Source: Clostridium sp. 'deep sea' (GTDB lineage: Bacteria; Bacillota; UBA994; PWPR01). Taken from it: a stretch of 64,000 bases of DNA. The first letter of the stretch is position 1. Every line of letters starts with the position of its first letter. Both the position numbers and the translations under genes were made by a program. The notes beneath the pieces were generated by a model. The model was not told the origin of the DNA. It saw only the letters and a program-made list of their open reading frames with translations, and did no database searches. Positions 3,403-20,933 of this stretch are shown piece after piece. Location of the stretch: positions 248,001 to 312,000 of the forward strand of contig NZ_CP063353.1 in the NCBI RefSeq assembly GCF_014931565.1. Reading direction: 5' to 3'.

Positions 3403-4083
3403 ATGAGCAATTCAATACTTGTTGTGGAAGATGAAAAAAGAATGATAGAAATAATCTGTGATTATATAGAATCTGAAGGGTATGCCGTTTATAAGGCTGC
3501 TGATGGACTAGAGGCTATGGATATATTTGATAATAATGATATTAATTTGGTAATCCTAGATATAATGATTCCTAAACTGGATGGCTGGTCAGTATGTAGA
3601 AGAATAAGAAAAAAATCTGATACTCTAATTATTATATTGAGTGCTCGTAGTGACGAAGACGATAAATTACTTGGTTTTGAACTAGGTGCAGATGAATATG
3701 TTACCAAGCCGTTTAGTCCCAAAGTTTTAATGGCTAGGGTTAAAGCCCTATTAAAAAGATTTGAAAACAACTGTCCCTATAATAATAGAAATATTACTAT
3801 AATAGATGAACTTTGCATAGATAAAGATGCCTACAAAGTTTTAGTTAATAACAAAGAATTAAACTTAACAATTAAAGAATATGAGCTTTTACTAAAGCTT
3901 GTAGATAATAAAGGCAAGGTATTTAAAAGAGATGTATTAATTAACTCAATTTGGGGCTATGATTATTTTGGTGATGGTAGAGTAATAGATACAAATATAA
4001 AAACACTACGCAAAAAACTAGGGATTTGTTCAAAATTTATAAAAACTGTAATAGGTGTTGGATACAAGTTCGAGGTGAAATAA
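3403..4083 (+). CDS. OmpR-family response regulator
   Basis: The protein has 226 residues. The N-terminal receiver domain (about 1-120) has the acidic pocket E9/D10, the phospho-acceptor D53 in VILDIMIPK, and the conserved Lys in YVTKPFSP. The C-terminal winged-helix domain (about 130-225) ends in VIDTNIKTLRKKLG...VIGVGYKFE, the OmpR/PhoB DNA-binding signature. It is a cytoplasmic transcription factor activated by a sensor kinase. The stop codon overlaps the ATG of a decayed kinase gene (TAATG), so the original partner was lost. The intact kinase at 5470 is the likely current partner. Phased TTCACA repeats in its own promoter suggest autoregulation. Confidence 0.92.
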   Translation: MSNSILVVEDEKRMIEIICDYIESEGYAVYKAADGLEAMDIFDNNDINLVILDIMIPKLDGWSVCRRIRKKSDTLIIILSARSDEDDKLLGFELGADEYVTKPFSPKVLMARVKALLKRFENNCPYNNRNITIIDELCIDKDAYKVLVNNKELNLTIKEYELLLKLVDNKGKVFKRDVLINSIWGYDYFGDGRVIDTNIKTLRKKLGICSKFIKTVIGVGYKFEVK

Positions 4084-4333
4084 TGAAAAAATCACCTACT
4101 TTTAAATGTTTTTGCTTATGTTCATGTTCTTTATGTTGTTAATTAGTTTCATAACAATGTTTAACTAAAATTTTATTTAGCAAAAACTGTATAGAGATGT
4201 TGTTATTAGACTTAATTGAGCAAGAATTTAAAGATTGTATAAGTGAATTGTGAAGAGAGTTTGTAGCCAATGTTTCACATCAAGTTCATACAGGTTTCAC
4301 ATTAAAGTTCTATAATGAAAACATCAAAATATA
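4083..4333 (+). pseudogene. Histidine-kinase remnant
   Basis: Immediately after the response regulator, overlapping its stop by one base, a new ATG opens. It runs out after about 19 codons, but a one-base shift reveals a membrane helix (MFLLMFMFFMLLISFITMF). Further on, another frame reads LDLIEQEFKDCISEL, a stop, then REFVANVSHQ. The last part is the kinase H-box, matching FVANVSHELK in the intact kinase at 5470. The sensor domain, the end of the dimerisation domain and the ATPase domain are missing. This is a heavily deleted and frameshifted kinase gene. Its H-box sequence now forms part of the next gene's promoter. Confidence 0.8.
4274..4316 (+). promoter_or_regulatory. Three phased TTCACA-type repeats and TATAAT, promoter of the secreted repeat protein
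   Basis: TTCACA (4274), TTCATA (4285) and TTCACA (4296) follow each other at exactly 11-base spacing. A perfect TATAAT begins at 4311, 15 bases from the last repeat, as in the promoter at 3214. There is no usable -35 box, which fits an activator-dependent OmpR/PhoB-class promoter. The first repeat coincides with codons for the H-box of the decayed kinase. The site places the secreted protein in the regulon of the response regulator at 3403 (inference). Confidence 0.65.
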
Positions 4334-4344
4334 GGAGGTTTAAT

Positions 4345-5358
4345 ATGTATAAAAAAATAGTTGGAGTAGCATTAGCAACAGTTATGAGTTTAACAACATT
4401 AGGAGTTAATAATGTTAATTTGGGTGATGAGTTTAATTCAAAAAATATTGAAAGAGTAGAGGTAACTAATAGTCTAGAAAATCAAGAGTTAAATTTAGTT
4501 AGTCTAACTGGTAATGAGAGTATTCGTTACTTAATATGTAAAATTATGCACGTTCCAAGTTTTAAGAGTTTTCAAGAGTATAAAAGTAGGTTAATGGTTG
4601 ATGTAACTGAAGAAGTACTAAGTAAAGCTGAAAATATTTATAATAAAGCTATGTTGCTAGATAAAGCTGGAAATATAGAAGAATTGAATAAAGTTTGGCT
4701 TGAGTTCAATAAATTAGGATTAGAGTATTTAGGACAATATGAATATTATGATTATTTTTACGAAACTGCACTCTTTAATGCTTTTATGCCTAAAGAAATA
4801 GAAGAAAAAGCAAAAAGTCTATATAATAATGCAATTAAAGCTGAAAAAGAAAATAATAAAGAAAAAGCAATTAAGTTATGGGCTGAATTGCAAGATATGA
4901 AGCTGTTTAATAAGGTTTTTGAACCTGAGGATACATATGAATGTTTAAAAGGTAATGGTATAAGATATATATCTTGTCTGCAAATCAATGAACCAGATTT
5001 TGATAGTTTTGATGACTATAAAAACAGACTTCTTGTAAATATTACTAACGAAGAGTTGGAAAAGGCAAAAGATTTATATAATAAAGCTATGTCGCTTCAA
5101 AATAGACGTGATTATAGTGGAGCAAATCATATATGGAATGAGATGTCTGAGTTAGGCTTATTAGAATATACTGACCAATATAAATTTGGACCTTTTGAGT
5201 ATATTTCTCCTTTTATTAAGCAAGAACTCTCTGAAGAAGAGTATTTAAAAGCTGAAAGATTGTATAATGATGCTGTAAAAGCCGAAAAAGGAAATAATGC
5301 TAAAGAAGCGTCTAGACTATGGAACGAGTTACAAAGATTAACTACAATTTACAAATAA
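4345..5358 (+). CDS. Secreted protein with four helical repeat modules
   Basis: The start is ATG 4345, seven bases after AGGAGG. An upstream in-frame ATG at 4315 overlaps the -10 box and cannot be used. The 337-residue product has a signal peptide (MYKKIVGVALATVMSLTTLG). The rest is two copies of a ~150-residue unit, each opening with a SIRYLIC- or GIRYISC-type motif. Each unit holds two modules of the form KAxxLYNxAxxAExxxNxxxAxxLWxEL. The modules look like TPR-type helical hairpins. I do not recognise the family. Its place between regulator and kinase, under the TTCACA promoter, suggests an exported sensor partner or main target of the system. Confidence 0.75.
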   Translation: MYKKIVGVALATVMSLTTLGVNNVNLGDEFNSKNIERVEVTNSLENQELNLVSLTGNESIRYLICKIMHVPSFKSFQEYKSRLMVDVTEEVLSKAENIYNKAMLLDKAGNIEELNKVWLEFNKLGLEYLGQYEYYDYFYETALFNAFMPKEIEEKAKSLYNNAIKAEKENNKEKAIKLWAELQDMKLFNKVFEPEDTYECLKGNGIRYISCLQINEPDFDSFDDYKNRLLVNITNEELEKAKDLYNKAMSLQNRRDYSGANHIWNEMSELGLLEYTDQYKFGPFEYISPFIKQELSEEEYLKAERLYNDAVKAEKGNNAKEASRLWNELQRLTTIYK

Positions 5359-5419: not shown

Positions 5420-5469
5420 TGTATTTAAGTGTATAAATTAACTAATGTAGAATGTAAATGGGAGATAAA

Positions 5470-7179
5470 ATGAGGAAATCGTTAACATGTAAAGTTTTTT
5501 TAATCACTTCATTATGTTTTACTTTAATTTTAGGTTTAGTTACTCTATTTACAACAGTGTTTATAGACAGTGTACATCAAAAAAAAGAAATTTCTTATGC
5601 AATTAAAAGTGTAAATAATTTTGTAACCCAAAACAATAAAAAAGATTGGACTCAAAGAGAACTTTATATCAAACTAATTCATACGAACATTAACAGTCAG
5701 GCATTATGTGAAATAGTAGACCCAAAAGTGGGTTTTGGTAGACCATCCAAAGCATATGATGACTTTCAAAGGGTATTATTTACTGTAGAGAGAAATGGAA
5801 ATGATTTATATGATATACGAATATCTAAAAAGAAATATGATATTGCATTTGGTAAAAAAAATATTTTTAATGGAGATATGTTAAGAATTAAAGGATATAT
5901 TAAAGCAAAAAGTATAATACCAATTCAAATAAATGGGGTTAACTTAGAATATGACAAAAACATAACACTAGATAAGAGTATAGATGATATTTTTTATGTG
6001 AGAGCAATATCATTTGACAATAAAGCTAACTACGAAGTTATCAGTGATATTTTTACTAAAAGAAATTTTATAGGTTTTGAATATTATATTTCCAAATCTC
6101 CAAATTTTGCTAGGCATCTATATTATAAAAGAAAAATTGAAAATACAAGTGGTAAGGTTTTAGCTGTGCAAGCTATTGTAATATTACAGCCTGTATATCA
6201 AACTATTAAATTGATTAAGGAATATTATGTTTACTTCTATATACTAGCATTAGGTGTCTCATTAGTTATGACATTTATTTACTCAAGAGTTGTAACAAAT
6301 CCATTAAAAAAATTATCACATTCTGCAAGTAGAATGGCAAATATGGATTTTTCTGATAACTATAGTGTTAATAGTGAGGATGAATTGGGCATTTTATCTA
6401 AAAGTTTAAATACTCTTTCACGTAATTTAAATGATGCTCTTAATCAATTAAAAAGTGCTAACTATCAACTTAAACTAGACTATGAAAAAGAGCTTAAACA
6501 AGAAAAATCACGTAAGGAGTTTGTAGCGAATGTTTCACATGAGCTGAAAACCCCTCTAGGAATAATAAAGGGTTTTGCAGAGGGACTAAAGGATGGCATA
6601 AAAAAAGATAAAAGAGATTATTATATAGATGTTATTTTAGATGAAGTTGAAAAAATGAACATCTTAATTTTGGAGATGTTAGAGTTATCTAAGCTTGAGG
6701 CTGGAGCTTTAAAGCTTAAAGTTGAAGAGTTTGATTTAAATAAATTAGTAAATAAGGTAGCAGATGTATTTAAGTTACCTGTAAGTGATAAAGGTTTAGT
6801 TATTAGTATTAGTGGTTTGTTTAATAATGTTATAGCTGATAAATCGAAAATTGAACAAGTTATAATAAATTTAGTTGGTAACGCCATAAAACACAGTACC
6901 GAGAATAGTGAGATTAAAGTATATGGTGAAGTTAAAGATAATAAAAACTATGTATATATTAAAAATAAATGTAATCCACTAACAGATGAAGAGTTAGTGA
7001 ATATTTGGCATAGATTTTATAAAACAGATAAGTCACACAATAGAGATAATGGTGGTACTGGCTTGGGGTTAGCAATAGTAAAAGCAATACTTGAGGTTCA
7101 TGAATTTGATTATGGTGTTAATAACTGTAATGATGGGGTTATATTTTATTTTGCAGTTGATTTAAGTATTAAAGATTAG
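5470..7179 (+). CDS. Membrane sensor histidine kinase
   Basis: ATG 5470 follows GGGAG by 5 bases; an ATG at 5458 has no ribosome site. The 569-residue protein has a first membrane helix (about 8-30), an extracellular sensor region of ~200 residues, a second helix (about 245-265) and a HAMP segment. The HisKA H-box follows with phospho-acceptor H357 in FVANVSHELKTP. The C-terminal HATPase_c has an N-box (NAIKHS) and a G-box (GGTGLGLAIVK). It autophosphorylates and passes phosphate to a response regulator, most likely the one at 3403. The sensor domain resembles nothing I can name. It lies directly downstream of the secreted repeat protein, which could be its ligand or modulator. Confidence 0.9.
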   Translation: MRKSLTCKVFLITSLCFTLILGLVTLFTTVFIDSVHQKKEISYAIKSVNNFVTQNNKKDWTQRELYIKLIHTNINSQALCEIVDPKVGFGRPSKAYDDFQRVLFTVERNGNDLYDIRISKKKYDIAFGKKNIFNGDMLRIKGYIKAKSIIPIQINGVNLEYDKNITLDKSIDDIFYVRAISFDNKANYEVISDIFTKRNFIGFEYYISKSPNFARHLYYKRKIENTSGKVLAVQAIVILQPVYQTIKLIKEYYVYFYILALGVSLVMTFIYSRVVTNPLKKLSHSASRMANMDFSDNYSVNSEDELGILSKSLNTLSRNLNDALNQLKSANYQLKLDYEKELKQEKSRKEFVANVSHELKTPLGIIKGFAEGLKDGIKKDKRDYYIDVILDEVEKMNILILEMLELSKLEAGALKLKVEEFDLNKLVNKVADVFKLPVSDKGLVISISGLFNNVIADKSKIEQVIINLVGNAIKHSTENSEIKVYGEVKDNKNYVYIKNKCNPLTDEELVNIWHRFYKTDKSHNRDNGGTGLGLAIVKAILEVHEFDYGVNNCNDGVIFYFAVDLSIKD

Positions 7180-7386
7180 TAACAGTTGTATAGTTACACG
7201 TTAGCTAAGTATCAACAACGTAACTACTAAGATACTTCATTTAAACAATAAGTTACACTTGTGTTAGTAAAATACTTTTATTTTAGCTTGTCTACAAATA
7301 TTTTGAGATAACCATTGTTTTTTGTTTAAACGTTTTTAATTATTATCATATTATAATTAAATTATGAAAAAAGTATCTTAATTATA

Positions 7387-7395
7387 TGATATACT
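7387..7395 (+). promoter_or_regulatory. Extended -10 promoter of the triple-riboswitch leader
   Basis: TG-A-TATACT forms an extended -10 box with no clear -35. Transcription would start near 7402, giving a leader of about 360 nt that spans all three c-di-GMP aptamers. Upstream, 7180-7386 is AT-rich with partial inverted repeats of TAGTTACACG and GTAACTA types, and no gene is visible there. Confidence 0.5.
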
Positions 7396-7450
7396 AATCA
7401 TGAGAGGGTAATTAAAGTGCAGTCAGACAGTATTGACCGCAGTATTCTGT

Positions 7451-7528
7451 AAATAGCAAAACATATTAAAGTATGTGACGCAAAGCTATAGGGTCTAAGG
7501 CTTAAAAAGCTAGGATAGCCAGCTACCA
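7451..7528 (+). promoter_or_regulatory. c-di-GMP-I riboswitch aptamer 1 of 3 (GEMM)
   Basis: The segment has the GEMM-I core. AGCAAAACATA and TATGTGACGCAAAGC flank a short loop (P2). TATAGGGTCTAAG and a GATAGCCAGCTACC closing segment follow. The order GCAAA - hairpin - GACGCAAAGC - GGGTCTAAG - AGCCAGCTACC is that of known c-di-GMP-I aptamers. A strong hairpin with loop around ACCATG (about 7529-7569) separates it from aptamer 2. Confidence 0.85.
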
Positions 7529-7566
7529 GAAAAGTCTTTGATTACCATGTAATCTATAGATCTTTT

Positions 7567-7650
7567 CACGACAAACGGCAAACTAAGTGAAAGCTTAGGA
7601 CGCAAAACTAGAGGGTCTAAGTCTTAATTGATATGACAGCCAGTTATCGA
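7567..7650 (+). promoter_or_regulatory. c-di-GMP-I riboswitch aptamer 2 of 3 (GEMM)
   Basis: ACGGCAAACTAAG, a GTGAAAG-type capped hairpin, CTTAGGACGCAAAACT, GAGGGTCTAAG and GACAGCCAGTTATC reproduce the GEMM-I order. P2 is five base pairs (CTAAG/CTTAG). It is followed by a purine-rich/pyrimidine-rich hairpin at 7649-7674. Confidence 0.87.
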
Positions 7651-7679
7651 AAGAAGAGTTTTAACTTTTCTTTCCCAAA

Positions 7680-7750
7680 TAAGGGCAAACCTGCTGTGAG
7701 GCAGGGACGCAAAACTATAGGGTCTTTGAAAAAAGATAGCCAGATGCTAA
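7680..7750 (+). promoter_or_regulatory. c-di-GMP-I riboswitch aptamer 3 of 3, adjoining the ribosome site
   Basis: AGGGCAAACCTGC, loop, GCAGGGACGCAAAACT, TAGGGTCT, a shortened P3 and GATAGCCAGATGC match GEMM-I very closely. The aptamer ends one base before the GGGAGAGG ribosome site (7751-7758) of the TTG-started gene at 7764, so control of translation is likely. CTTTCCC at 7670-7676, just before the aptamer, can pair either with the upstream purine hairpin or with this ribosome site. Confidence 0.88.
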
Positions 7751-7763
7751 GGGAGAGGCTTAA

Positions 7764-8549
7764 TTGAAAAGAATAGTATTAACTTTTGTAATGGCATTAA
7801 TTTTAACGTTAATGTTTACACTAACAGCTGTTGCTGATAGTGAAATTATAAAGGTCAATACTGAAGAAAGCACTATTAGCATTAATTTAAATGTTAATGA
7901 TTATTCTGAATTTAAAGTGATTGTGAAAAGTGAGAAAGGTAAGTATACTTATAATCTCTATTCACAAAGTGAAATTCTTCCTTTACAAATGGGTAATGGT
8001 AAATATACTGTTGGTGTTTACCAAAAAATTGAAGGTAAAAGATACAAGCTTGTTACTAAAAAAGAATTTGTATTAAATACCGAAGAAAATAAAGTATATT
8101 TAGCCAGCTCGCAAAATGTAACTTGGAATAATGAATCTGCTACAACAACTCTAGCACATCAATTAACAGAAAACCTTAAAACTGATAAAGAAAAGCTAGA
8201 AGCTATACATAGTTATATTATTAATAATATAACTTATGATAAAAGTAAAGCTTTAAGTGTAACTACTAGGTATAATCCTAACGCAGAAGCTACTCTAAAA
8301 GACAGCAAAGGAATATGTTATGACTATGCCTCTTTAACTGCAGCTATGCTGAGAAGTGTTGGTATTAAAACTAAGCTTGTTAAGGGAAATAGTACTTATA
8401 CACGTTTTTATCATGCATGGAACGAGGTATTAATAGATGGTAGTTGGCTTGTAGTAGACACAACTGCTGATGCGGCTTATAATGCACAGGATATTAATGT
8501 ATCTTACATAAAAAATACTGATGATTATAAAGCTGATAAAGTTTATTAA
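7764..8549 (+). CDS. Secreted transglutaminase-fold cysteine enzyme under c-di-GMP control
   Basis: A TTG start five bases after GGGAGAGG gives 261 residues with a signal peptide (about 1-24, ending TAVADS). Residues 25-115 look beta-rich. Residues 135-235 form a transglutaminase-like core: C185 in SKGICYDYASL, H217 in RFYHAWNE and D232 in WLVVDTT make the Cys-His-Asp triad. Such folds act as proteases, amidases or cross-linkers on the outside of the cell. The gene lies behind three c-di-GMP-I aptamers and directly before a giant wall adhesin, so that adhesin is the obvious candidate substrate. This is inference by analogy; no sequence similarity to LapG is claimed. Confidence 0.82.
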   Translation: MKRIVLTFVMALILTLMFTLTAVADSEIIKVNTEESTISINLNVNDYSEFKVIVKSEKGKYTYNLYSQSEILPLQMGNGKYTVGVYQKIEGKRYKLVTKKEFVLNTEENKVYLASSQNVTWNNESATTTLAHQLTENLKTDKEKLEAIHSYIINNITYDKSKALSVTTRYNPNAEATLKDSKGICYDYASLTAAMLRSVGIKTKLVKGNSTYTRFYHAWNEVLIDGSWLVVDTTADAAYNAQDINVSYIKNTDDYKADKVY

Positions 8550-8587
8550 ATATAGAATATTTAATCCCTCTCATAAATCGACATATT

Positions 8588-8617
8588 ACTTCTATTTTTA
8601 TAGAAGTTTTTTTATTT
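8588..8617 (+). terminator. Rho-independent terminator
   Basis: ACTTCTAT/ATAGAAGT with a four-T loop is followed by seven T. It ends the transglutaminase-fold gene, so the adhesin downstream needs its own promoter. Confidence 0.8.
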
Positions 8618-8724
8618 TAAACTTTAAAAAAGATTAAAAGAAATATGAATTTAAAGATAACTTAAATATATATGAAACATAACTTAAAAATGTTATTTTA
8701 ACAATTAAATTTAGCTTTTTTTCA

Positions 8725-8753
8725 TTGTTAAAGTAGGGGTGTTTTGCTATAAT
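8725..8753 (+). promoter_or_regulatory. SigA-type promoter of the giant adhesin
   Basis: TTGTTA, a 17-base spacer and a perfect TATAAT give a start near 8760 and a leader of about 140 nt. I looked for a c-di-GMP-I or -II aptamer in the leader and did not find one. Bases 8618-8724 hold no gene. Confidence 0.65.
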
Positions 8754-8901
8754 TATTTTGAACTTTTTGTTTCTAGAATTATTTAAACTGTAGATAAAAT
8801 AGATGTTTAATGTTTGGAAAAACAAATGTATCATATTCTGGCTTTTTTATATACATGTGTTCTAAAAGTTCGATAGGGAATCTATTTACGGAGGTGGAAG
8901 C

Positions 8902-11900
8902 ATGCAAGTAGCAAAAGGCAAAAAGAGCACAAAATTTTTGGCTTTATTATTATGCTTTGCATTAATTTTTTCTAATTTTACTTCAATTCAGGGTTTTGCT
9001 GAGACAGAAGAAGTTTTAAAGATAACTTCACAACAGCAAGAGGACAATACCAATAGACAAACTGCTGGAATTAAAATGCCAACAGAGAGCACTGAAAAAA
9101 ATCTGAGACAAGAAGTAACTGAGCCACCGTCAGATACAACAGATGGTGATGATGATAAAGTGACTGAGCCAAACGATGAAGATGACGAAGTGACTGAGCC
9201 ACCATCAGAAAACGAAGATGATGAAGATGACGAAGTAACTGAGCCATCAACAGATGATGAAGATGATGAAGATGACGAAGCAACTGAGCCATCAACAGAT
9301 GATGAAGATGACGAAGCAACTGAGCCATCAACAGATGATGAAGATGACGAAGCAACTGAGCCATCAACAGATGATGAAGATGACGAAGCAACTGAGCCAT
9401 CAACAGATGATGAAGATGACGAAGTAACTGAGCCATCAACAGATGATGAAGATGACGAAGCAACTGAGCCATCAACAGATGATGAAGATGACGAAGCAAC
9501 TGAGCCATCAACAGATGATGAAGATGACGAAGTAACTGAGCCATCAACAGATGATGAAGATGACGAAGTAACTGAGCCACCATCAGAAAACGAAGATGGT
9601 GAAGATGACGAAGTAACTGAGCCATCATCAGATGACCAGCTTATGACCTTAATGATGGTTCCTCAATACCTTACAGAATTACCAAGCCCTAATATTAATC
9701 AAAATGCAGCTTATTTTTATGCTAGTGATTTTAGTGGAAGAACTGTTAAAATATTCCCATTGAAGTCTCTGGAGAATATTCACCATATAGAGCAGGTATC
9801 TGGTGTAGATAGTGGTTATACCGATATTGCCTCAAGTACAGGTAAACTGTATGGAGTAAGTTCTGGAATATGTGGTGGCTTATATGAAGTAAAAAGAGGT
9901 AATGATAAAAAAATAACAGATGAAGTATATGGTAATGCCTTACACTATGATGGTGCTGGAAAATTCTACTTTATGAAGGGTACTATTTTAGCATTTTATG
10001 ATATAAATAATGATACAGTACAAGATGTTATTGATGTAGGATATTACAGTAAAGGTGATTTAGCATTTTACAATAACGATATCTACCTTTTAGGAAAAAG
10101 AAAACATAACTCTCATAGATGTTTGTTAATTAGAATCACACATGAGTTAAATGTTGAGGTTGTTAAGTACATTAATAATAACTCTTTTGGGTTAGCAGTG
10201 TGTGAAAATAATTTATATGTAGCTTATGACAATAAAGTGCAAGCAATTAATCCTAACACTGGTAATTATCTTGGTGAAGCGATTTTGGTACCAGGCTTAG
10301 GTTATATATATGGTTTAGCCCAAGCAAATGACGATTCTCAAATTACATATGTACCTGGTTATGTGTATTCACAGCATTACAAGATTAATCAATTACCAAC
10401 GGTTAGTGATGAACAAAAATGGAGACTAGACTCTCATGACATAAAGCTTGGTTTGCCTGTAATTAAAAAATCTTTAACAGGTAGAAATAACTATACAAAA
10501 AACAGTACTGAGGCTGCGTTTTTAAAGCATGTACCTAGTGTTTTTCCAGATTCAAAATCTAAAAATGCTCAAAAAATATATGGATATTTAATTCCACAAG
10601 CTAATATCACAGATATTAGAGTAACAACAGATGACGGTGTGAGATTTTATCTTGATAGTGATTTAAATAACAATATTAATTTAAGCGATTTACTTATTGA
10701 TAAGTTTATTGTACAGTCTAAAACAACGTATGAAACTAAAGTGAATTTAAGCAGAGGCACACCTTATCTTTATCAAATTAGCTACTTTAACTGGGGTGGT
10801 GCTGGTGCTTTATATTTTGAGTACAAATCAGACAATCATTGGACTAGAGTGCCTGCTAATTGGTGGCATATTAAATTGAATACAGCAATACCGTTCGAAA
10901 ATACACCACCTACAATAGTAGTAAACCCAAGTAAAGAAACTATTTTTTATAACAATACCAGTTATAATATTAACCACGGAGTAACAGTTCATGATAATGA
11001 GCAGCCTGACTTAGCTTACCAAACAGATGATGATAACTTTGTACATGGTAATACAGGAGATACTGAAAAGGTTTATAACATAAAGTATACTGCTGAAGAT
11101 GCCTTTGGTAAAAAAACAGAGGCAACAAGAAAAGTTACAATATTACCTAATCAGGCGCCAGTAGTAGAAGTAAATGAACCTATTATTAATATTGCTTTTA
11201 AAAGTGAATTTAATGATAGTTTAATTATGCAAGGTGTATCAGCTAAAGATGTTGATGGTTCGGTACAAAGTTTAGATTACAACATACCAATACCAATAGA
11301 TACTCATCAGCAAAATACTAGTTTTATTATTAACTATATTGCTGTAGATAATGATGGCAAAGTAGGCTATGGTACTAAAACTGTTAAAATTGGAGCTAAT
11401 CATAAACCGAAATTAACAGTGCCTAGTAGTATTAAAAAGATTCTTTTTGGTGCTCCAAGTATTAATCTACTTGAGGATATTACAGCAACTGATGTAGAAG
11501 ATGGCAATTTAATAGATCAAGTTGTTTATAATCCCAAAACAATTGATACCCAGATAGCTACAACTACTGAGATCATATATACAGTTAGTGATAATGATGG
11601 TTTAACAAGTGAAGCTAGTAGGGATTATGAGGTACTTAATAATAATCCACCTCAATTAATTGTAAATAATGTTACCATAGAATATGGAGCTAACTTTAAT
11701 GAAAGTGATTACAACAATTACTCAGTTAGCGATGTAGAAGATGATGCGCATGCACTTAAAGTAAAAGTAGCATACTTAGGTAAAGTAAATACCTATCAAC
11801 CTAATAGCTACACTATAAGTTATACAGCTACGGATTCTGCTGGTGCTAAGGTTACTAAAGATAGAATAGTTACAGTGGTAGATACAAAAATGCCTACAAT

Positions 11901-14900
11901 AAATAACGAATATCCTACAGTAACCATTAAGCTTGGTACTAAGTATGGACTTAATGAAATTATGGCAGGTGTTAGTGCTAGTGATCCAGTAGATGGACCA
12001 CTTAATGTAACTTATACTGGTAGTGTTAATACTAGTATAGTAGCTCAGTATAAAATAACATACTCAGCCAAAGACTTTAACAATAATGAAGTCACCTGTA
12101 CCCGTATAGTTAATGTAGCAGATAAAACTGATCCTACTCTTACAGTAAATCCACTAAGAATAGTGGTGCTAAAGGGTGATAAAATAGATGACTATTTTAT
12201 GGGAGTTAGTGCTACAGATAATTATGATACAGATGTAAAAATCACTAAGAGAGGAACAGCAAACACCAATAAAGAGGGAGACCATAAAGTAACATATATT
12301 GCCACAGATGACTCTGGAAACAAAACAGAGGTAACACGAATATACCATGTTAATTATGCTCCAACAATTATTACAAACGGTGTAAGGAATGTGTATTTTG
12401 GTGAAAAGATTAATGTATATAGTGAAATAACCACCAATGATCAAGATGGAACAGTTGAAAGTGTTATTGCTGAGCCAAACACTATTGACTCTAAAACTGT
12501 TGGTGCAACAATAGTAAAATATACAGTTACAGATAATGATAAAGCAGTAACTGTTGGATTTAAAACATTTAGTGTTAAACAAAATAATCCACCTGTTTTA
12601 ACCATAAAAAGACTTAACCCTAATCAACTAGTAGACACAGTTGAATATGGAGCTTCATTTGAGATGTTTAACGGTGTTTCAGCAAAAGATAAAGAAGATG
12701 ATAAGTTAGGTTTTAAGGTAGAAATAACATATGACAACGAGCTGGATACTTCTAAGGTAGGAATACATTCCATAGAGTATACTGCAACTGATTCAGAGCT
12801 TGCTACTGATAAAAAAATACGAGTAATAGCTGTTATAGACACTAATAAACCAACAATAACTAATAAAATAGCCAATGTGGATTTATTATTGGGAGATACT
12901 TACAATAAAGCTGATATCTTGGCTGGAGTAGAGGCCAAAGATAAAGTAGATGGTGTCTTACCAAGCAGTAACATTAGCTATACAATTAAAGACAAAAATA
13001 ACCAAATTGTAAGTGAAATTAAATCTGACCTAGTAATGAACTATACCATTACTTATGAAGCAGTAGATAAACATAATAATAAATCCAATGAAGTTACCAG
13101 AACAGTAAGCGTAAAAGATAAAGAAGCACCTGTTTTTGAAGCTTACAATAATTATATTGTAGTACAGCAGGGAGCTACTATAGATTATTTAGCTGGCATA
13201 AAAGCCAATGATAACTACGATAGTACAGTTCAAATTAAACATGATGGTGATATAAACACAAAAAATCCGGGTGAGTATACTGTTACCTATACAGCAACAG
13301 ATAGCTCATTAAACGAAGCTAAAATAAAGCGAACTTATAGAGTAAATGCCAAGCCAATAATTAACATAACTAATCCAAGTCAAGAAGTATACTATGGAGA
13401 GCAGAACATTGATGTATTAGCAGGTGTTACTGCAAACGACAGTGAAGATGGTGACCTTACAGCTGTTATTGATGTGGATCTTAATACTATAGACTCAACT
13501 ATAGTTGGTTCAAAAAAAGTAACATATGAAGTTGTAGATAAAGACGGTGCTAAAACAATAGCAACAAAAACATTTACAGTGTTACCAAATAAACAACCTG
13601 TTTTAACAGTGAATGCTATAAATGAACCAATTAAATTTGGTAGTAAGTTTGATACCTTAACCGGAGTATCTGCAACAGACTATGAGGATAAAAAACTTGG
13701 TCTTGATGTAGATATAAAATTTGATAAAAAAATTGATACAACCACAGCAGGTAACCAAACAATTACCTATACTGCAACCGATTCAGCAGGAGCAAAAGTA
13801 ACTAAAAGCAGAACTGTTACAGTTGCAGCGAATACTGCACCAGTTATAACATTTAAAAATAATGAAACAGTAATTACCTTTGAATATGGTGTTGTAGTAA
13901 CTAAAGAAATGCAACTTAATAATGTAGAAGCTAATGATAATGAAGATGGAGTTATAACTGATATAACTACCGATGCTGAAGCTAAAGCTTATGCTGTAGG
14001 AGACCATATCATTACTTATACAGCAAAAGATAAACATGATTTAGTAGGTACTAACTCAAGAACAATGAGAATTAAAGATACCGAAGCACCAGTACTAACT
14101 AATAAAATAGCCAATGTTGACTTAGTATTGGGAGATACTTATCCTAAAGCTAAAATCTTAGCTGGAGTAGAGGCCAAAGATAAAGTAGATGGTGTCTTAC
14201 CATGCAGTAACATTAGCTATACAATTAAAGACAAAAATAACCAAATTGTAAGTGAAATTAAATCTGACCTAGTAATGAACTATACCATTACTTATGAAGC
14301 AGTAGATAAACATAATAATAAATCCAATGAAGTTACCAGAACAGTAAGTGTAAAAGATAAAGAAGCACCTGTTTTTGAAGCTTACAATAATTATATTGTA
14401 GTACAGCAGGGAGCTACTATAGATTATTTAGCTGGCATAAAAGCCAATGATAACTACGATAGTATAGTTGAAATTACACATGATGGCAAAATAAACACAG
14501 ACAGTCCGGGTGAGTATACTGTTACCTATACAGCAACAGATAGCTCATTAAACGAAGCTAAAATAAAGAGAACTTATAGAGTAAATGCCAAGCCAATAAT
14601 TCACATAGCTAATCCAAGTCAAGAAGTATACTATGGAGAGCAGAACATTGATGTATTAGCAGGTGTTACTGCAAACGACAGTGAAGATGGTGACCTTACA
14701 GCTGTTATTGATGTGGATCTTAATACTATAGACTCAACTATAGTTGGTTCAAAAAAAGTAACATATGAAGTTGTAGATAAAGACGGTGCTAAAACAATAG
14801 CAACAAAAACATTTACAGTGTTACCAAATAAACAACCTGTTTTAACAGTGAATGCTATAAATGAACCAATTAAATTTGGTAGTAAGTTTGATACCTTAAC

Positions 14901-17900
14901 CGGAGTATCTGCAACAGACTATGAGGATAAAAAACTTGGTCTTGATGTAGATATAAAATTTGATAAAAAAATTGATACAACCACAGCAGGTAACCAAACA
15001 ATTACCTATACTGCAACCGATTCAGCAGGAGCAAAAGTAACTAAAAGCAGAACTGTTACAGTTGCAGCGAATACTGCACCAGTTATAACATTTAAAAATA
15101 ATGAAACAGTAATTACCTTTGAATATGGTGTTGTAGTAACTAAAGAAATGCAACTTAATAATGTAGAAGCTAATGATAATGAAGATGGAGTTATAACTGA
15201 TATAACTACCGATGCTGAAGCTAAAGCTTATGCTGTAGGAGACCATATCATTACTTATACAGCAAAAGATAAACATGATTTAGTAGGTACTAACTCAAGA
15301 ACAATGAGAATTAAAGATACCGAAGCACCAGTACTAACTAATAAAATAGCCAATGTTGACTTAGTATTGGGAGATACTTATCCTAAAGCTAAAATCTTAG
15401 CTGGAGTAGAGGCCAAAGATAAAGTAGATGGTGTTTTACCAAGCAGTAGCATTAGCTATACAATTAAAGACAAAAATAACCAAATTGTAAGTGAAATTAA
15501 ATCTGACCTAGTAATGAACTATACCATTACTTATGAAGCAGTAGATAAACATAATAATAAATCCAATGAAGTTACTAGAACAGTAAGCGTAAAAGATAAA
15601 GAAGCACCTGTTTTTGAAGCTTACAATAATTATATTGTAGTACAGCAGGGAGCTACTATAGATTATTTAGCTGGCATAAAAGCCAATGATAACTACGATA
15701 GTACAGTTCAAATTAAACATGATGGTGATATAAACACAAAAAATCCGGGTGAGTATATTGTTACCTATACAGCAACAGATAGCTCATTAAACGAAGCTAA
15801 AATAAAGAGAACTTATAGAGTAAATGCCAAGCCAATAATTCACATAGCTAATCCAAGTCAAGAAGTATACTATGGAGAGCAGAACATTGATGTATTAGCA
15901 GGTGTTACTGCAAACGACAGTGAAGATGGTGACCTTACAGCTGTTATTGATGTGGATCTTAATACTATAGACTCAACTATAGTTGGTTCAAAAAAAGTAA
16001 CATATGAAGTTGTAGATAAAGACGGTGCTAAAACAATAGCAACAAAAACATTTACAGTGTTACCAAATAAACAACCTGTTTTAACAGTGAATGCTATAAA
16101 TGAACCAATTAAATTTGGTAGTAAGTTTGATACCTTAACCGGAGTATCTGCAACAGACTATGAGGATAAAAAACTTGGTCTTGATGTAGATATAAAATTT
16201 GATAAAAAAATTGATACAACCACAGCAGGTAACCAAACAATTACCTATACTGCAACTGACTCAGCAGGAGCAAAAGTAACTAAAAGCAGAACTGTTACAG
16301 TTGCAGAGAATACTGCACCAGTTATAACATTTAAAAATAATGAAACAGTAATTACCTTTGAATATGGTGTTGTAGTAACTAAAGAAATGCAACTTAATAA
16401 TGTAGAAGCTAATGATAATGAAGATGGAGTTATAACTGATATAACTACCGATGCTGAAGCTAAAGCTTATGCTGTAGGAGACCATATCATTACTTATACA
16501 GCAAAAGATAAACATGATTTAGTAGGTACTAACTCAAGAACAATGAGAATTAAAGATACTGAAGCACCAGTACTAACTAATAAAATAGCCAATGTTGACT
16601 TAGTATTGGGAGATACTTATCCTAAAGCTAAAATCTTAGCTGGAGTAGAGGCCAAAGATAAAGTAGATGGTGTTTTACCAAGCAGTAGCATTAGCTATAC
16701 AATTAAAGACAAAAATAACCAAATTGTAAGTGAAATTAAATCTGACCTAGTAATGAACTATACCATTACTTACAAAGCAGTAGATAAACATAATAATAAA
16801 TCCAATGAAGTTACTAGAACAGTAAGCGTAAAAGATAAAGAAGCACCTGTTTTTGAAGCTTACAATAATTATATTGTAGTACAGCAGGGAGCTACTATAG
16901 ATTATTTAGCTGGCATAAAAGCCAATGATAACTACGATAGTACAGTTCAAATTAAACATGATGGTGATATAAACACAAAAAATCCGGGTGAGTATATTGT
17001 TACCTATACAGCAACAGATAGCTCATTAAACGAAGCTAAAATAAAGAGAACTTATAGAGTAAATGCCAAGCCAATAATTCACATAACTAATCCAAGTCAA
17101 GAAGTATACTATGGAGAGCAGAACATTGATGTATTAGCAGGTGTTACTGCAAACGACAGTGAAGATGGTGACCTTACAGCTGTTATTGATGTGGATCTTA
17201 ATACTATAGACTCAACTATAGTTGGTTCAAAAAAAGTAACATATGAAGTTGTAGATAAAGACGGTGCTAAAACAATAGCAACAAAAACATTTACAGTGTT
17301 ACTAAATAAACAACCTGTTTTAACAGTGAATGCTATAAATGAACCAATTAAATTTGGTAGTAAGTTTGATACCTTAACCGGAGTATCTGCAACAGACTAT
17401 GAGGATAAAAAACTTGGTCTTGATGTAGATATAAAATTTGATAAAAAAATTGATACAACCACAGCAGGTAACCAAACAATTACCTATACTGCAACCGATT
17501 CAGCAGGAGCAAAAGTAACTAAAAGCAGAACTGTTACAGTTGCAGCGAATACTGCACCAGTTATAACATTTAAAAATAATGAAACAGTAATTACCTTTGA
17601 ATATGGTGTTGTAGTAACTAAAGAAATGCAACTTAATAATGTAGAAGCTAATGATAATGAAGATGGAGTTATAACTGATATAACTACCGATGCTGAAGCT
17701 AAGGCTTATGCTGTAGGCGACCATACCATTACTTATACAGCAAAAGATAAACATGATTTAGTAGGTACTAACTCAAGAACAATGACAATTGAAGATACGG
17801 AAGCACCAGTGATAGAAAATAACTTAGCTGAAAAAACAATTACAGTAGGAACTGAGTATGGTGATAGCGACATCCTTAGTGGCGTAAGTGCAAGTGACCC

Positions 17901-19029
17901 AATTGATGGAGAGGTAGCAGTTACCTACGTAATAGAGTTAGTAAAAGCAGATGGTAGTAAAGAAAAAGTTAGCGCAATTGCCAAAGATAGCTTAGGTAAA
18001 TATCTAATAACCTATTCAGCAAAAGACAAAAATGGAAACTTGGCAGATACAAAAGAGCGTACTGTAGAGGTAATTGATGATGTAAAACCACAACTAAGTA
18101 TAAACCCAAATAGAATTAGGGTTTTACGTGGAAGAACAGTTTCTAACTACTTATATGGTGTAACAGCAACCGATAATTATAATACAAACGTTACAATAAA
18201 ACATAATGGACCAATTAATACTGATTCTTTAGGTGAAAAAACTGTTGAGTATGTAGCTAAGGATGCCTCTGGTAATGAAGTAAAGGGTACAAGGGTATAT
18301 GTGGTGTATGAATATTATTATCCACCAACACCGCCAGAACCTAAGCCTGAACCTAAACCAGAACCACCAACTCCAGAAACACCTACTGAGCCAGGAGATG
18401 AAGAAATTATTGAAGACGATGAAACTCCATTAGGTGTTGTTGAGTACTTTGATCCTTATATTCATGGTTATGAAGATAAGACATTTAGACCAGCAAATAA
18501 TGTAACAAGAGCAGAATTAGCTGCTATGATTTCAAGAATACTAAAGCTCAATTTAGATGAACCAACTGATATTAGCTTTAGTGATGTAGCAGAGGGTAAG
18601 TGGTATACTAAGTGTATTTTAGCTGTATCTAAGTTAGGGTTATTTAATGTTTACGAAGATGGAACATTTAAACCTAATCAGGCTGCTACAAGAGCTGAGG
18701 TATCATATTTATTCTCACAATACTGGAAATACCTTAACATTGAGGTTAATAATCAGGCTGATTACTTTACAGATATAAAGGGACATTGGGCTGAGGCTTA
18801 TATTAATCAAATGTATAATGCTGGTGTAGTAAACGGATTTAAAGATAAAACCTTTAGACCTGATACTGCCTTAAAGCGAGAGCAGGTTGTTGTTATAATA
18901 AATAAACTTATTGGCAGACCTGTGTTACAGCCAGAGTCACCTTCATTCCCTGATATGCCAAAAGAACATTGGGCATATGGTGAAGTAGAGGCTGCAACTG
19001 TTAGCTTTGAAAGAGAAAAGCAAGAATAG
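8902..19029 (+). CDS. Giant S-layer-homology surface adhesin with Ig-like repeats
   Basis: The protein has 3375 residues, starting after GGAGGTGG. In order: signal peptide (1-33); Thr/Glu/Pro/Asp-rich stalk (about 70-245) of 12-residue EPSTDDEDDEAT-type units; a region resembling beta-propeller blades (about 255-480); a PA14-like domain (about 525-660, with DDGVRFYLDSD and SYFNWGGAGALYFEY); then about 30 Ig/cadherin-like modules of 72-95 residues, typified by GVSAxDxxDG and TYTAxDxxG. Residues 1320-2971 are four nearly identical 413-residue units of five modules each. A Pro-rich linker (PEPKPEPKPEPP) precedes three SLH domains (from about 3180, two with TRAE) and the start of a fourth. SLH domains bind pyruvylated secondary wall polymer. 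The likely role is a long, wall-anchored adhesin. Confidence 0.9.
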   Translation: MQVAKGKKSTKFLALLLCFALIFSNFTSIQGFAETEEVLKITSQQQEDNTNRQTAGIKMPTESTEKNLRQEVTEPPSDTTDGDDDKVTEPNDEDDEVTEPPSENEDDEDDEVTEPSTDDEDDEDDEATEPSTDDEDDEATEPSTDDEDDEATEPSTDDEDDEATEPSTDDEDDEVTEPSTDDEDDEATEPSTDDEDDEATEPSTDDEDDEVTEPSTDDEDDEVTEPPSENEDGEDDEVTEPSSDDQLMTLMMVPQYLTELPSPNINQNAAYFYASDFSGRTVKIFPLKSLENIHHIEQVSGVDSGYTDIASSTGKLYGVSSGICGGLYEVKRGNDKKITDEVYGNALHYDGAGKFYFMKGTILAFYDINNDTVQDVIDVGYYSKGDLAFYNNDIYLLGKRKHNSHRCLLIRITHELNVEVVKYINNNSFGLAVCENNLYVAYDNKVQAINPNTGNYLGEAILVPGLGYIYGLAQANDDSQITYVPGYVYSQHYKINQLPTVSDEQKWRLDSHDIKLGLPVIKKSLTGRNNYTKNSTEAAFLKHVPSVFPDSKSKNAQKIYGYLIPQANITDIRVTTDDGVRFYLDSDLNNNINLSDLLIDKFIVQSKTTYETKVNLSRGTPYLYQISYFNWGGAGALYFEYKSDNHWTRVPANWWHIKLNTAIPFENTPPTIVVNPSKETIFYNNTSYNINHGVTVHDNEQPDLAYQTDDDNFVHGNTGDTEKVYNIKYTAEDAFGKKTEATRKVTILPNQAPVVEVNEPIINIAFKSEFNDSLIMQGVSAKDVDGSVQSLDYNIPIPIDTHQQNTSFIINYIAVDNDGKVGYGTKTVKIGANHKPKLTVPSSIKKILFGAPSINLLEDITATDVEDGNLIDQVVYNPKTIDTQIATTTEIIYTVSDNDGLTSEASRDYEVLNNNPPQLIVNNVTIEYGANFNESDYNNYSVSDVEDDAHALKVKVAYLGKVNTYQPNSYTISYTATDSAGAKVTKDRIVTVVDTKMPTINNEYPTVTIKLGTKYGLNEIMAGVSASDPVDGPLNVTYTGSVNTSIVAQYKITYSAKDFNNNEVTCTRIVNVADKTDPTLTVNPLRIVVLKGDKIDDYFMGVSATDNYDTDVKITKRGTANTNKEGDHKVTYIATDDSGNKTEVTRIYHVNYAPTIITNGVRNVYFGEKINVYSEITTNDQDGTVESVIAEPNTIDSKTVGATIVKYTVTDNDKAVTVGFKTFSVKQNNPPVLTIKRLNPNQLVDTVEYGASFEMFNGVSAKDKEDDKLGFKVEITYDNELDTSKVGIHSIEYTATDSELATDKKIRVIAVIDTNKPTITNKIANVDLLLGDTYNKADILAGVEAKDKVDGVLPSSNISYTIKDKNNQIVSEIKSDLVMNYTITYEAVDKHNNKSNEVTRTVSVKDKEAPVFEAYNNYIVVQQGATIDYLAGIKANDNYDSTVQIKHDGDINTKNPGEYTVTYTATDSSLNEAKIKRTYRVNAKPIINITNPSQEVYYGEQNIDVLAGVTANDSEDGDLTAVIDVDLNTIDSTIVGSKKVTYEVVDKDGAKTIATKTFTVLPNKQPVLTVNAINEPIKFGSKFDTLTGVSATDYEDKKLGLDVDIKFDKKIDTTTAGNQTITYTATDSAGAKVTKSRTVTVAANTAPVITFKNNETVITFEYGVVVTKEMQLNNVEANDNEDGVITDITTDAEAKAYAVGDHIITYTAKDKHDLVGTNSRTMRIKDTEAPVLTNKIANVDLVLGDTYPKAKILAGVEAKDKVDGVLPCSNISYTIKDKNNQIVSEIKSDLVMNYTITYEAVDKHNNKSNEVTRTVSVKDKEAPVFEAYNNYIVVQQGATIDYLAGIKANDNYDSIVEITHDGKINTDSPGEYTVTYTATDSSLNEAKIKRTYRVNAKPIIHIANPSQEVYYGEQNIDVLAGVTANDSEDGDLTAVIDVDLNTIDSTIVGSKKVTYEVVDKDGAKTIATKTFTVLPNKQPVLTVNAINEPIKFGSKFDTLTGVSATDYEDKKLGLDVDIKFDKKIDTTTAGNQTITYTATDSAGAKVTKSRTVTVAANTAPVITFKNNETVITFEYGVVVTKEMQLNNVEANDNEDGVITDITTDAEAKAYAVGDHIITYTAKDKHDLVGTNSRTMRIKDTEAPVLTNKIANVDLVLGDTYPKAKILAGVEAKDKVDGVLPSSSISYTIKDKNNQIVSEIKSDLVMNYTITYEAVDKHNNKSNEVTRTVSVKDKEAPVFEAYNNYIVVQQGATIDYLAGIKANDNYDSTVQIKHDGDINTKNPGEYIVTYTATDSSLNEAKIKRTYRVNAKPIIHIANPSQEVYYGEQNIDVLAGVTANDSEDGDLTAVIDVDLNTIDSTIVGSKKVTYEVVDKDGAKTIATKTFTVLPNKQPVLTVNAINEPIKFGSKFDTLTGVSATDYEDKKLGLDVDIKFDKKIDTTTAGNQTITYTATDSAGAKVTKSRTVTVAENTAPVITFKNNETVITFEYGVVVTKEMQLNNVEANDNEDGVITDITTDAEAKAYAVGDHIITYTAKDKHDLVGTNSRTMRIKDTEAPVLTNKIANVDLVLGDTYPKAKILAGVEAKDKVDGVLPSSSISYTIKDKNNQIVSEIKSDLVMNYTITYKAVDKHNNKSNEVTRTVSVKDKEAPVFEAYNNYIVVQQGATIDYLAGIKANDNYDSTVQIKHDGDINTKNPGEYIVTYTATDSSLNEAKIKRTYRVNAKPIIHITNPSQEVYYGEQNIDVLAGVTANDSEDGDLTAVIDVDLNTIDSTIVGSKKVTYEVVDKDGAKTIATKTFTVLLNKQPVLTVNAINEPIKFGSKFDTLTGVSATDYEDKKLGLDVDIKFDKKIDTTTAGNQTITYTATDSAGAKVTKSRTVTVAANTAPVITFKNNETVITFEYGVVVTKEMQLNNVEANDNEDGVITDITTDAEAKAYAVGDHTITYTAKDKHDLVGTNSRTMTIEDTEAPVIENNLAEKTITVGTEYGDSDILSGVSASDPIDGEVAVTYVIELVKADGSKEKVSAIAKDSLGKYLITYSAKDKNGNLADTKERTVEVIDDVKPQLSINPNRIRVLRGRTVSNYLYGVTATDNYNTNVTIKHNGPINTDSLGEKTVEYVAKDASGNEVKGTRVYVVYEYYYPPTPPEPKPEPKPEPPTPETPTEPGDEEIIEDDETPLGVVEYFDPYIHGYEDKTFRPANNVTRAELAAMISRILKLNLDEPTDISFSDVAEGKWYTKCILAVSKLGLFNVYEDGTFKPNQAATRAEVSYLFSQYWKYLNIEVNNQADYFTDIKGHWAEAYINQMYNAGVVNGFKDKTFRPDTALKREQVVVIINKLIGRPVLQPESPSFPDMPKEHWAYGEVEAATVSFEREKQE
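9235..9570 (+). repeat. 36-bp tandem repeat encoding an acidic stalk
   Basis: About nine units with a 36-base period encode EPSTDDEDDE followed by AT or VT. Variation between units is almost confined to one GCA/GTA codon, pointing to recent slippage or unequal exchange. The product would be extended, highly negative and a potential Ca2+ or glycan carrier. Confidence 0.9.
12859..17814 (+). repeat. Four tandem 1239-bp repeats inside the adhesin gene
   Basis: Units start at 12859, 14098, 15337 and 16576, and each encodes 413 residues (five Ig-like modules). They are almost identical at DNA level. Scattered differences include PCSN for PSSN in unit 2, KINTDSP for DINTKNP in unit 2, and TYKAVD and LLNKQ in unit 4. 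Identity including third positions indicates recent duplication or gene conversion. Copy number could differ between strains or be wrong in a short-read assembly. Confidence 0.95.
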
Positions 19030-20849: not shown

Positions 20850-20928
20850 ACAAAACTCCTACAGAAACAAACATGCCACTGTAGGAGTCATTAGCTTAAG
20901 CATTTAAGGGCGAACTCCATCGCCACTA
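20850..20928 (-). promoter_or_regulatory. Fluoride (crcB-type) riboswitch with terminator platform
   Basis: Read on the minus strand from about 20926, the leader contains GGCGATGGAGTTCGCC, then AAATGCTTAAGC, then TAATGACTCCTAC, the conserved pieces of the fluoride aptamer. GGAGT in the first loop can form the known pseudoknot with ACTCC. That ACTCCTACAG strand can instead pair with CTGTAGGAGT (20855-20864) to make a 10-base-pair terminator followed by TTTGTATTTT. Aptamer and terminator are mutually exclusive, giving a fluoride-ON transcription switch. Confidence 0.88.
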
Positions 20929-20933
20929 GCTGA

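Follow-up and report, generated by a model that had tools for sequence, protein, structure and literature searches.

Three tandem c-di-GMP-I aptamers in the leader of a transglutaminase-like protein gene: a conserved array predicted to act as a translational OFF switch

What can three c-di-GMP-I aptamers do when they are stacked in the leader of a single gene, and is such a stack real? The question is raised by a locus in Clostridium sp. 'deep sea' (contig NZ_CP063353.1), analysed here within a stretch of 64,000 nucleotides that is referred to as the window. Tandem riboswitches of this class are abundant, and the papers considered here explain them as independent terminators in series.

The array and its relatives

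A cmscan search against Rfam 15 returned three RF01051 (GEMM-I) matches on the + strand of the window, each spanning model positions 1-87 and scoring above the gathering score of 35 bits: aptamer 1 at 7445-7530 (74.0 bits, E 1.2e-12), aptamer 2 at 7567-7651 (72.5 bits, E 2.8e-12) and aptamer 3 at 7674-7751 (59.3 bits, E 4.7e-09), with E-values referring to the whole window. An earlier note on this DNA had claimed three GEMM-I cores in one leader and had named an RF01051 search as the check, with fewer than three significant hits counting against it; three were found, at coordinates that match the proposed cores to within a few bases, and the presence of three c-di-GMP-I-type aptamers in a single leader is thereby confirmed. 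Searches of the whole 3.83-Mb genome gave no RF01051 match outside the array and no c-di-GMP-II match, the latter being a search that cannot establish absence. Two other riboswitches lie on the - strand of the window, an azaaromatic (yjdF) riboswitch at 114-213 (74.7 bits) and a Fluoride (crcB) riboswitch at 20875-20933 (50 bits).

The three aptamers are 59-66% identical to one another, are separated by linkers of 36 nt (aptamers 1-2) and 22 nt (aptamers 2-3), and are not interrupted by any ORF upstream of the gene. Their fold covaries among 35 aligned copies from the gene family, with 95% of cells paired and a covariation score of 0.64 vs 0.24 in shuffles. An extended -10 element, TGaTATACT (7387-7395, + strand), points to a transcription start near 7402, in agreement with the leader start given earlier, and the sole ORF downstream of the array is the TTG-started 7764-8549, so that the leader does precede one gene.

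The census comprised 81 loci, namely the window and 80 orthologs of the transglutaminase-like protein. Aptamers precede the gene in 77 of them, as triples in 5, as doubles in 40 and as singles in 32. Three Vallitalea-type genomes (loci L034, L035 and L036) have kept the triple and also the extended -10, and the aptamers of these loci and of the window cluster by position, with support of 100/100 for aptamer 1, 100/99 for aptamer 3 and weaker support for aptamer 2. The four triples are one inherited array and, because the leader of approximately 360 nt is conserved in all three relatives and its aptamers group by position there, it is not an assembly artefact. The fifth triple (L064:2490-2937), found in the same gene family, is an independent triplication with copies 89-93% identical.

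The description of triples as unusual holds for their frequency: the 5/81 counted here agrees with the 6% of triples, against 94% of doubles, given for c-di-GMP-I riboswitches of COG1305 transglutaminase-like genes of Bacillota in the available part of a 2025 survey (PMC12452182), and 12 triplets vs 347 doublets were counted in a 2022 survey (PMC9481103). It does not hold in the sense of novelty, since such triples are already known and one has been characterised experimentally (PMC4759541). The contiguous c-di-GMP-I/COG1305 loci of the 2025 survey share aptamer class, gene family and the phylum Bacillota with the present locus; that survey, in its available part, gives only counts, to which the present analysis adds, for the Vallitalea-type triple, contact residues, the Shine-Dalgarno overlap and linker hairpins. 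We regard the array as a real, conserved variant of a known arrangement, apparently a translational, single-platform triple with divergent contact residues.

Overlap of the Shine-Dalgarno sequence with aptamer 3

The Shine-Dalgarno sequence GGGAGAG (7751-7757, + strand; its GGAG at 7752-7755 stands 8 nt ahead of the TTG codon) doubles as the 3' strand of aptamer 3's outer P1 helix and pairs with the anti-Shine-Dalgarno strand CUUUCCC (7670-7676, + strand), which is the 5' strand of the same helix. Both strands are invariant across the four triple leaders and the flank duplex has an energy of -12.1 kcal/mol. A Shine-Dalgarno-like motif lies no more than 12 nt from the end of the start-proximal aptamer in 69/75 orthologs and, in 25 non-redundant Bacillota loci, the duplex between P1 extension and Shine-Dalgarno sequence reaches -8.07 kcal/mol when matched vs -6.25 kcal/mol when swapped (permutation p=5e-5). 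This complementarity and covariation place the Shine-Dalgarno sequence in the P1 helix, a helix that we assign by inference to the ligand-bound state. Ligand binding stabilises P1 in GEMM-I riboswitches (PMC3764141) and, because P1 contains the Shine-Dalgarno sequence, translational OFF control is predicted.

The 5' strand of the outer P1 is also occupied by the linker 2-3 hairpin (7649-7674, + strand), a proposed anti-sequestor which shares bases with the 3' end of aptamer 2 and has a mean pair probability of 0.97 in the free leader (-11.5 kcal/mol, z -5.72); its homologs in L034-L036 have z values of -4.4 to -8.4. In the folding model, mean Shine-Dalgarno accessibility in the window falls from 0.46 to 0.06 once aptamer 3 is made to form its outer P1, an effect that is partly built in because the forced-P1 test presupposes the bound structure, and it stays at 0.47-0.54 when aptamers 1 and/or 2 alone are forced. 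The modelled free state of the relatives has the Shine-Dalgarno sequence already largely paired (0.15-0.29 unpaired), and the modelled all-bound state of the window retains a partial 2-3 hairpin. A long-range pair suggested by RNAfold (7561-7568 with 7765-7772) was set aside, as alignment inspection found that it is not kept in the relatives.

A scan of 7150-9000 on the + strand, which a weak AU-rich terminator could escape, detected no intrinsic terminator, and terminator-based transcriptional control was rejected on this basis. The idea that stacking might give logic between transcription and translation control thus finds no footing here, the only visible platform being Shine-Dalgarno masking by aptamer 3, with no terminator found between or after the aptamers. 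In many orthologs (L037, L044, L076, L086, L098 and similar) a T run, absent in the window, directly follows the Shine-Dalgarno strand of P1 before the ATG, so that P1 there could also serve as a terminator-like stem.

The locus is best read, in our judgement with fair probability, as a translational c-di-GMP OFF switch in which three GEMM-I aptamers serve a single expression platform. Without ligand, hairpin 7649-7674 would sequester CUUUC(CC) and leave GGGAGAG free, allowing the secreted transglutaminase-like protein to be made; binding of c-di-GMP to aptamer 3 would extend P1 outward by pairing CUUUCCC with GGGAGAG, mask the ribosome-binding site and stop translation. Aptamer 2, through the overlap of its 3' end with the anti-sequestor hairpin, and aptamer 1 would act as upstream modulators, which in the relatives are predicted to aid each other's folding by way of mutually exclusive linker hairpins, an aid that is predicted to be weak in this genome. 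Signalling by c-di-GMP is plausible since the genome encodes 10 GGDEF domains.

Divergence and coupling of the upstream aptamers

Ligand contacts were located by Vc2 numbering, in which G20 stands just before the G21-C46 pair and G14-C93 lies at the apex of P1 (PMC3764141). In the alignment, aptamer 1 has A20 (7455), A47 and C92, aptamer 2 has G20, A47 and U92 (7647, a position that is C in all three relatives), and only aptamer 3 has all three canonical contacts, G20 (7684), A47 and C92 (7747). The earlier proposal that the three aptamers differ, suggesting different affinities, is borne out at the sequence level by these contacts (AAC / GAU / GAC); the motif it gave for aptamer 1 is indeed AGCAAAAC, and the shortened P3 of aptamer 3 can be seen in the RF01051 alignment. 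Aptamer 3 further has the GNRA loop GUGA, the P2 loop of aptamer 1 is UAAA in place of GNRA, and J1/2 of aptamer 2 exceeds that of the relatives by two bases. The base changes A20 in aptamer 1 and U92 in aptamer 2 suggest a lower affinity or an altered ligand preference.

Of 142 aligned aptamers, 128 have G at position 20, 10 have A and 3 have C; C92 is substituted in 4, and position 47 is A in all 142, which is why the Rfam label RF03167 'c-di-GMP-I-GGC' carried by some ortholog matches was not used as a specificity call. Aptamer 1 lacks G20 in all four Vallitalea-type triples (the base is C in L034), vs 9/137 of the other aptamers (Fisher p 4.5e-5, for sequences that are not independent), and U92 recurs in three other Shine-Dalgarno-proximal aptamers of the gene family (L073, L078 and L080).

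Aptamer 1 is enclosed by an outer 11-bp helix (7407-7417 paired with 7536-7546, + strand; mean pair probability 0.78 in the free leader). L034-L036 preserve this pairing, apart from G-U/A-U changes and a single mismatch at the end. The linker 1-2 hairpin (7529-7567, + strand; GAAAAG...CUUUUC with inner GAUUAC/GUAAUC; -11.4 kcal/mol, z -3.84) overlaps both of its neighbours, aptamer 1 in its 3' P1 strand and aptamer 2 in its outer 5' strand, and its homologs in L034-L036 have z values of -3.0 to -5.7. Coupling was computed as the free energy by which forcing the P1 of one aptamer eases another's and was compared with 40 linker shuffles, the energy model ignoring tertiary contacts and kinetics. 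Between aptamers 1 and 2 it amounts to -4.35, -5.30 and -6.23 kcal/mol in L034, L035 and L036, with 0/40 shuffles as low in each, and to +0.36 kcal/mol in the window (29/40 shuffles as low), so that serial 1-2 coupling is not supported in this genome. For aptamers 2 and 3 all four leaders give values of -0.8 to -1.7 kcal/mol (-0.81 in the window), which are equalled or surpassed by 2/40 shuffles for the window, 6/40 for L034, 0/40 for L035 and 3/40 for L036. The few Paenibacillus doublets computed gave no consistent coupling.

These energies bear on a serial relay, in which binding at aptamer 1 would favour aptamer 2 and binding at aptamer 2 would favour aptamer 3, giving a truly cooperative system with one output. 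The linker hairpins speak for it, with z values between -3.0 and -8.4 and each drawing on the 3' P1 strand of the aptamer before it and on the outer 5' P1 strand of the aptamer after it, and the strong 1-2 coupling of the relatives together with the negative 2-3 coupling of all four leaders points the same way; against it stand the window's own values, an energy model without tertiary contacts or kinetics, and the 1-2 hairpin of L036, which survives in the modelled all-bound state. Set beside the energetic coupling of a glycine-type cooperative tandem riboswitch, the array has a 1-2 link that is strong in the relatives and absent in the window, and a weak 2-3 link. Because of this difference the relay is a credible reading of the lineage and a weak one of this genome, and as a general account we hold it possible but doubtful; its narrower form, with three aptamers in series through mutually exclusive linker hairpins, one ribosome-binding site and a changed specificity base upstream, appears somewhat more doubtful still. 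The earlier suggestion that stacking steepens the response is plausible, the computed coupling favouring steepening in the relatives and hardly in this genome.

Similarly doubtful, though deserving consideration, is a partly decayed array in which aptamer 3 alone would be functional here and aptamers 1 and 2 would be remnants. The A20 and UAAA loop of aptamer 1, the U92 and lengthened J1/2 of aptamer 2 and the loss of 1-2 coupling in the window could all be signs of decay, but aptamers 1 and 2 (74.0 and 72.5 bits) outscore aptamer 3, aptamer 1 shares 86-91% identity with its counterparts and U92 has the recurrence described above. Moreover, in Cd1 no large effect followed when G was replaced by A or by C at what appears to correspond to position 20 (PMC9262584).

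Three independent, complete riboswitches in series, acting pseudo-cooperatively, are what is known from Bc3-5 of B. thuringiensis CT-43 (PMC4759541), which resembles the present array in aptamer class, in having three aptamers per leader and in the surface-related genes downstream; both surveys, one in its available part, view c-di-GMP-I tandems in this way (PMC9481103, PMC12452182). Bc3-5, however, consists of three very similar terminator-type elements, transcriptional ON switches before cspABCDE, whereas the aptamers here are divergent, are joined by short linkers and are associated with a translational platform that is predicted to be OFF. The + strand scan of 7150-9000 found no terminator after the individual aptamers, and the 2-3 hairpin is directly followed by CCAAAU, without a U tract, which makes this explanation very unlikely.

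The least probable explanation, a two-signal device with aptamer 1 reading 3',3'-cGAMP through A20 and aptamer 3 reading c-di-GMP, draws on A20 as a mark of c-AMP-GMP riboswitches (PMC9481103), on the binding of cGAMP by Vc2 G20A and on the non-G20 enrichment in Vallitalea-type aptamers 1, but the base is C in L034, no Ser occurs at the Hypr position among the readable GGDEF domains of this genome or the seven of a sister genome, and no SMODS nucleotidyltransferase was found in the genome. At the Hypr position, the eight GGDEF domains of this genome that bear the motif carry Asp in seven cases and Asn in one; a ninth, degenerate one has Asp, the tenth being too degenerate to read. On these GGDEF and SMODS results aptamer 1 was rejected as a cGAMP sensor, and its lower affinity or relaxed specificity is the more economical assumption, given the readable GGDEF domains and the small effect in Cd1. 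Its A20 is shared with the Geobacter GEMM-Ib / 3',3'-cGAMP riboswitches, from which the array differs in that the genome has no Hypr GGDEF signature and G20 is retained in aptamers 2 and 3. A Peptococcaceae ortholog of the same gene family (L079:1028-1263) has A20 in both aptamers and is a possible cGAMP-type doublet.

The regulated gene and its possible role

The gene behind the array (7764-8549, + strand) encodes a secreted transglutaminase-like (COG1305-type), protease-like protein of 261 aa with a Pfam Transglut_core match (E 5.4e-23), a signal-peptide-like N-terminus, a triad Cys185-His217-Asp232 that is conserved among 19 aligned proteins, and an AlphaFold2 model with a pLDDT of 83. Start codons are weak (TTG/CTG), and the exact start in L034 and L035 is unsure because of an in-frame upstream ATG inside aptamer 3.

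Downstream, 8902-19029 encodes a 3375-aa SLH-anchored surface protein with 17 matches to bacterial Ig-like repeats and, in its N-terminal part, an acidic tandem repeat, STDDEDDEATEP-like, and this protein is a candidate substrate of the enzyme. Directly upstream of the same leader, an SLH protein is found in L035 and an SdrD_B/LPXTG protein with a sortase in L036, while L034 has no surface-protein neighbour of that kind at the leader. In the window, the region just upstream of the leader holds a two-component regulator (3403-4083) and a HAMP/HisKA kinase (5458-7179), with a probably secreted repeat protein (4315-5358) between them.

By analogy, the transglutaminase-like enzyme may act on surface proteins, by trimming or crosslinking them, at low c-di-GMP. 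In Clostridioides difficile the protease ZmpI/PPEP-1, which cleaves surface adhesins, is repressed by c-di-GMP through a class I riboswitch (PMC6366702); a c-di-GMP-I aptamer and a secreted enzyme are common to both systems, with repression being a prediction here, but ZmpI/PPEP-1 is a zinc protease with proven adhesin substrates, whereas the present locus has a transglutaminase-like enzyme and three aptamers. As proposed for ZmpI/PPEP-1, the role of the predicted OFF switch would be to keep surface adhesins on the cell at high c-di-GMP.

The covariation of the overlap between Shine-Dalgarno sequence and P1 across Bacillota predicts the OFF direction for the whole gene family. A triple without detected terminators and with one shared Shine-Dalgarno sequence would be a clean system in which to ask whether stacked aptamers cooperate on a single platform, and equally how the response is tuned by contact bases that are changed in one copy or another. 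If the relay were true, it would constitute true thermodynamic cooperativity in a riboswitch class whose tandems have so far been regarded as a series of independent switches.
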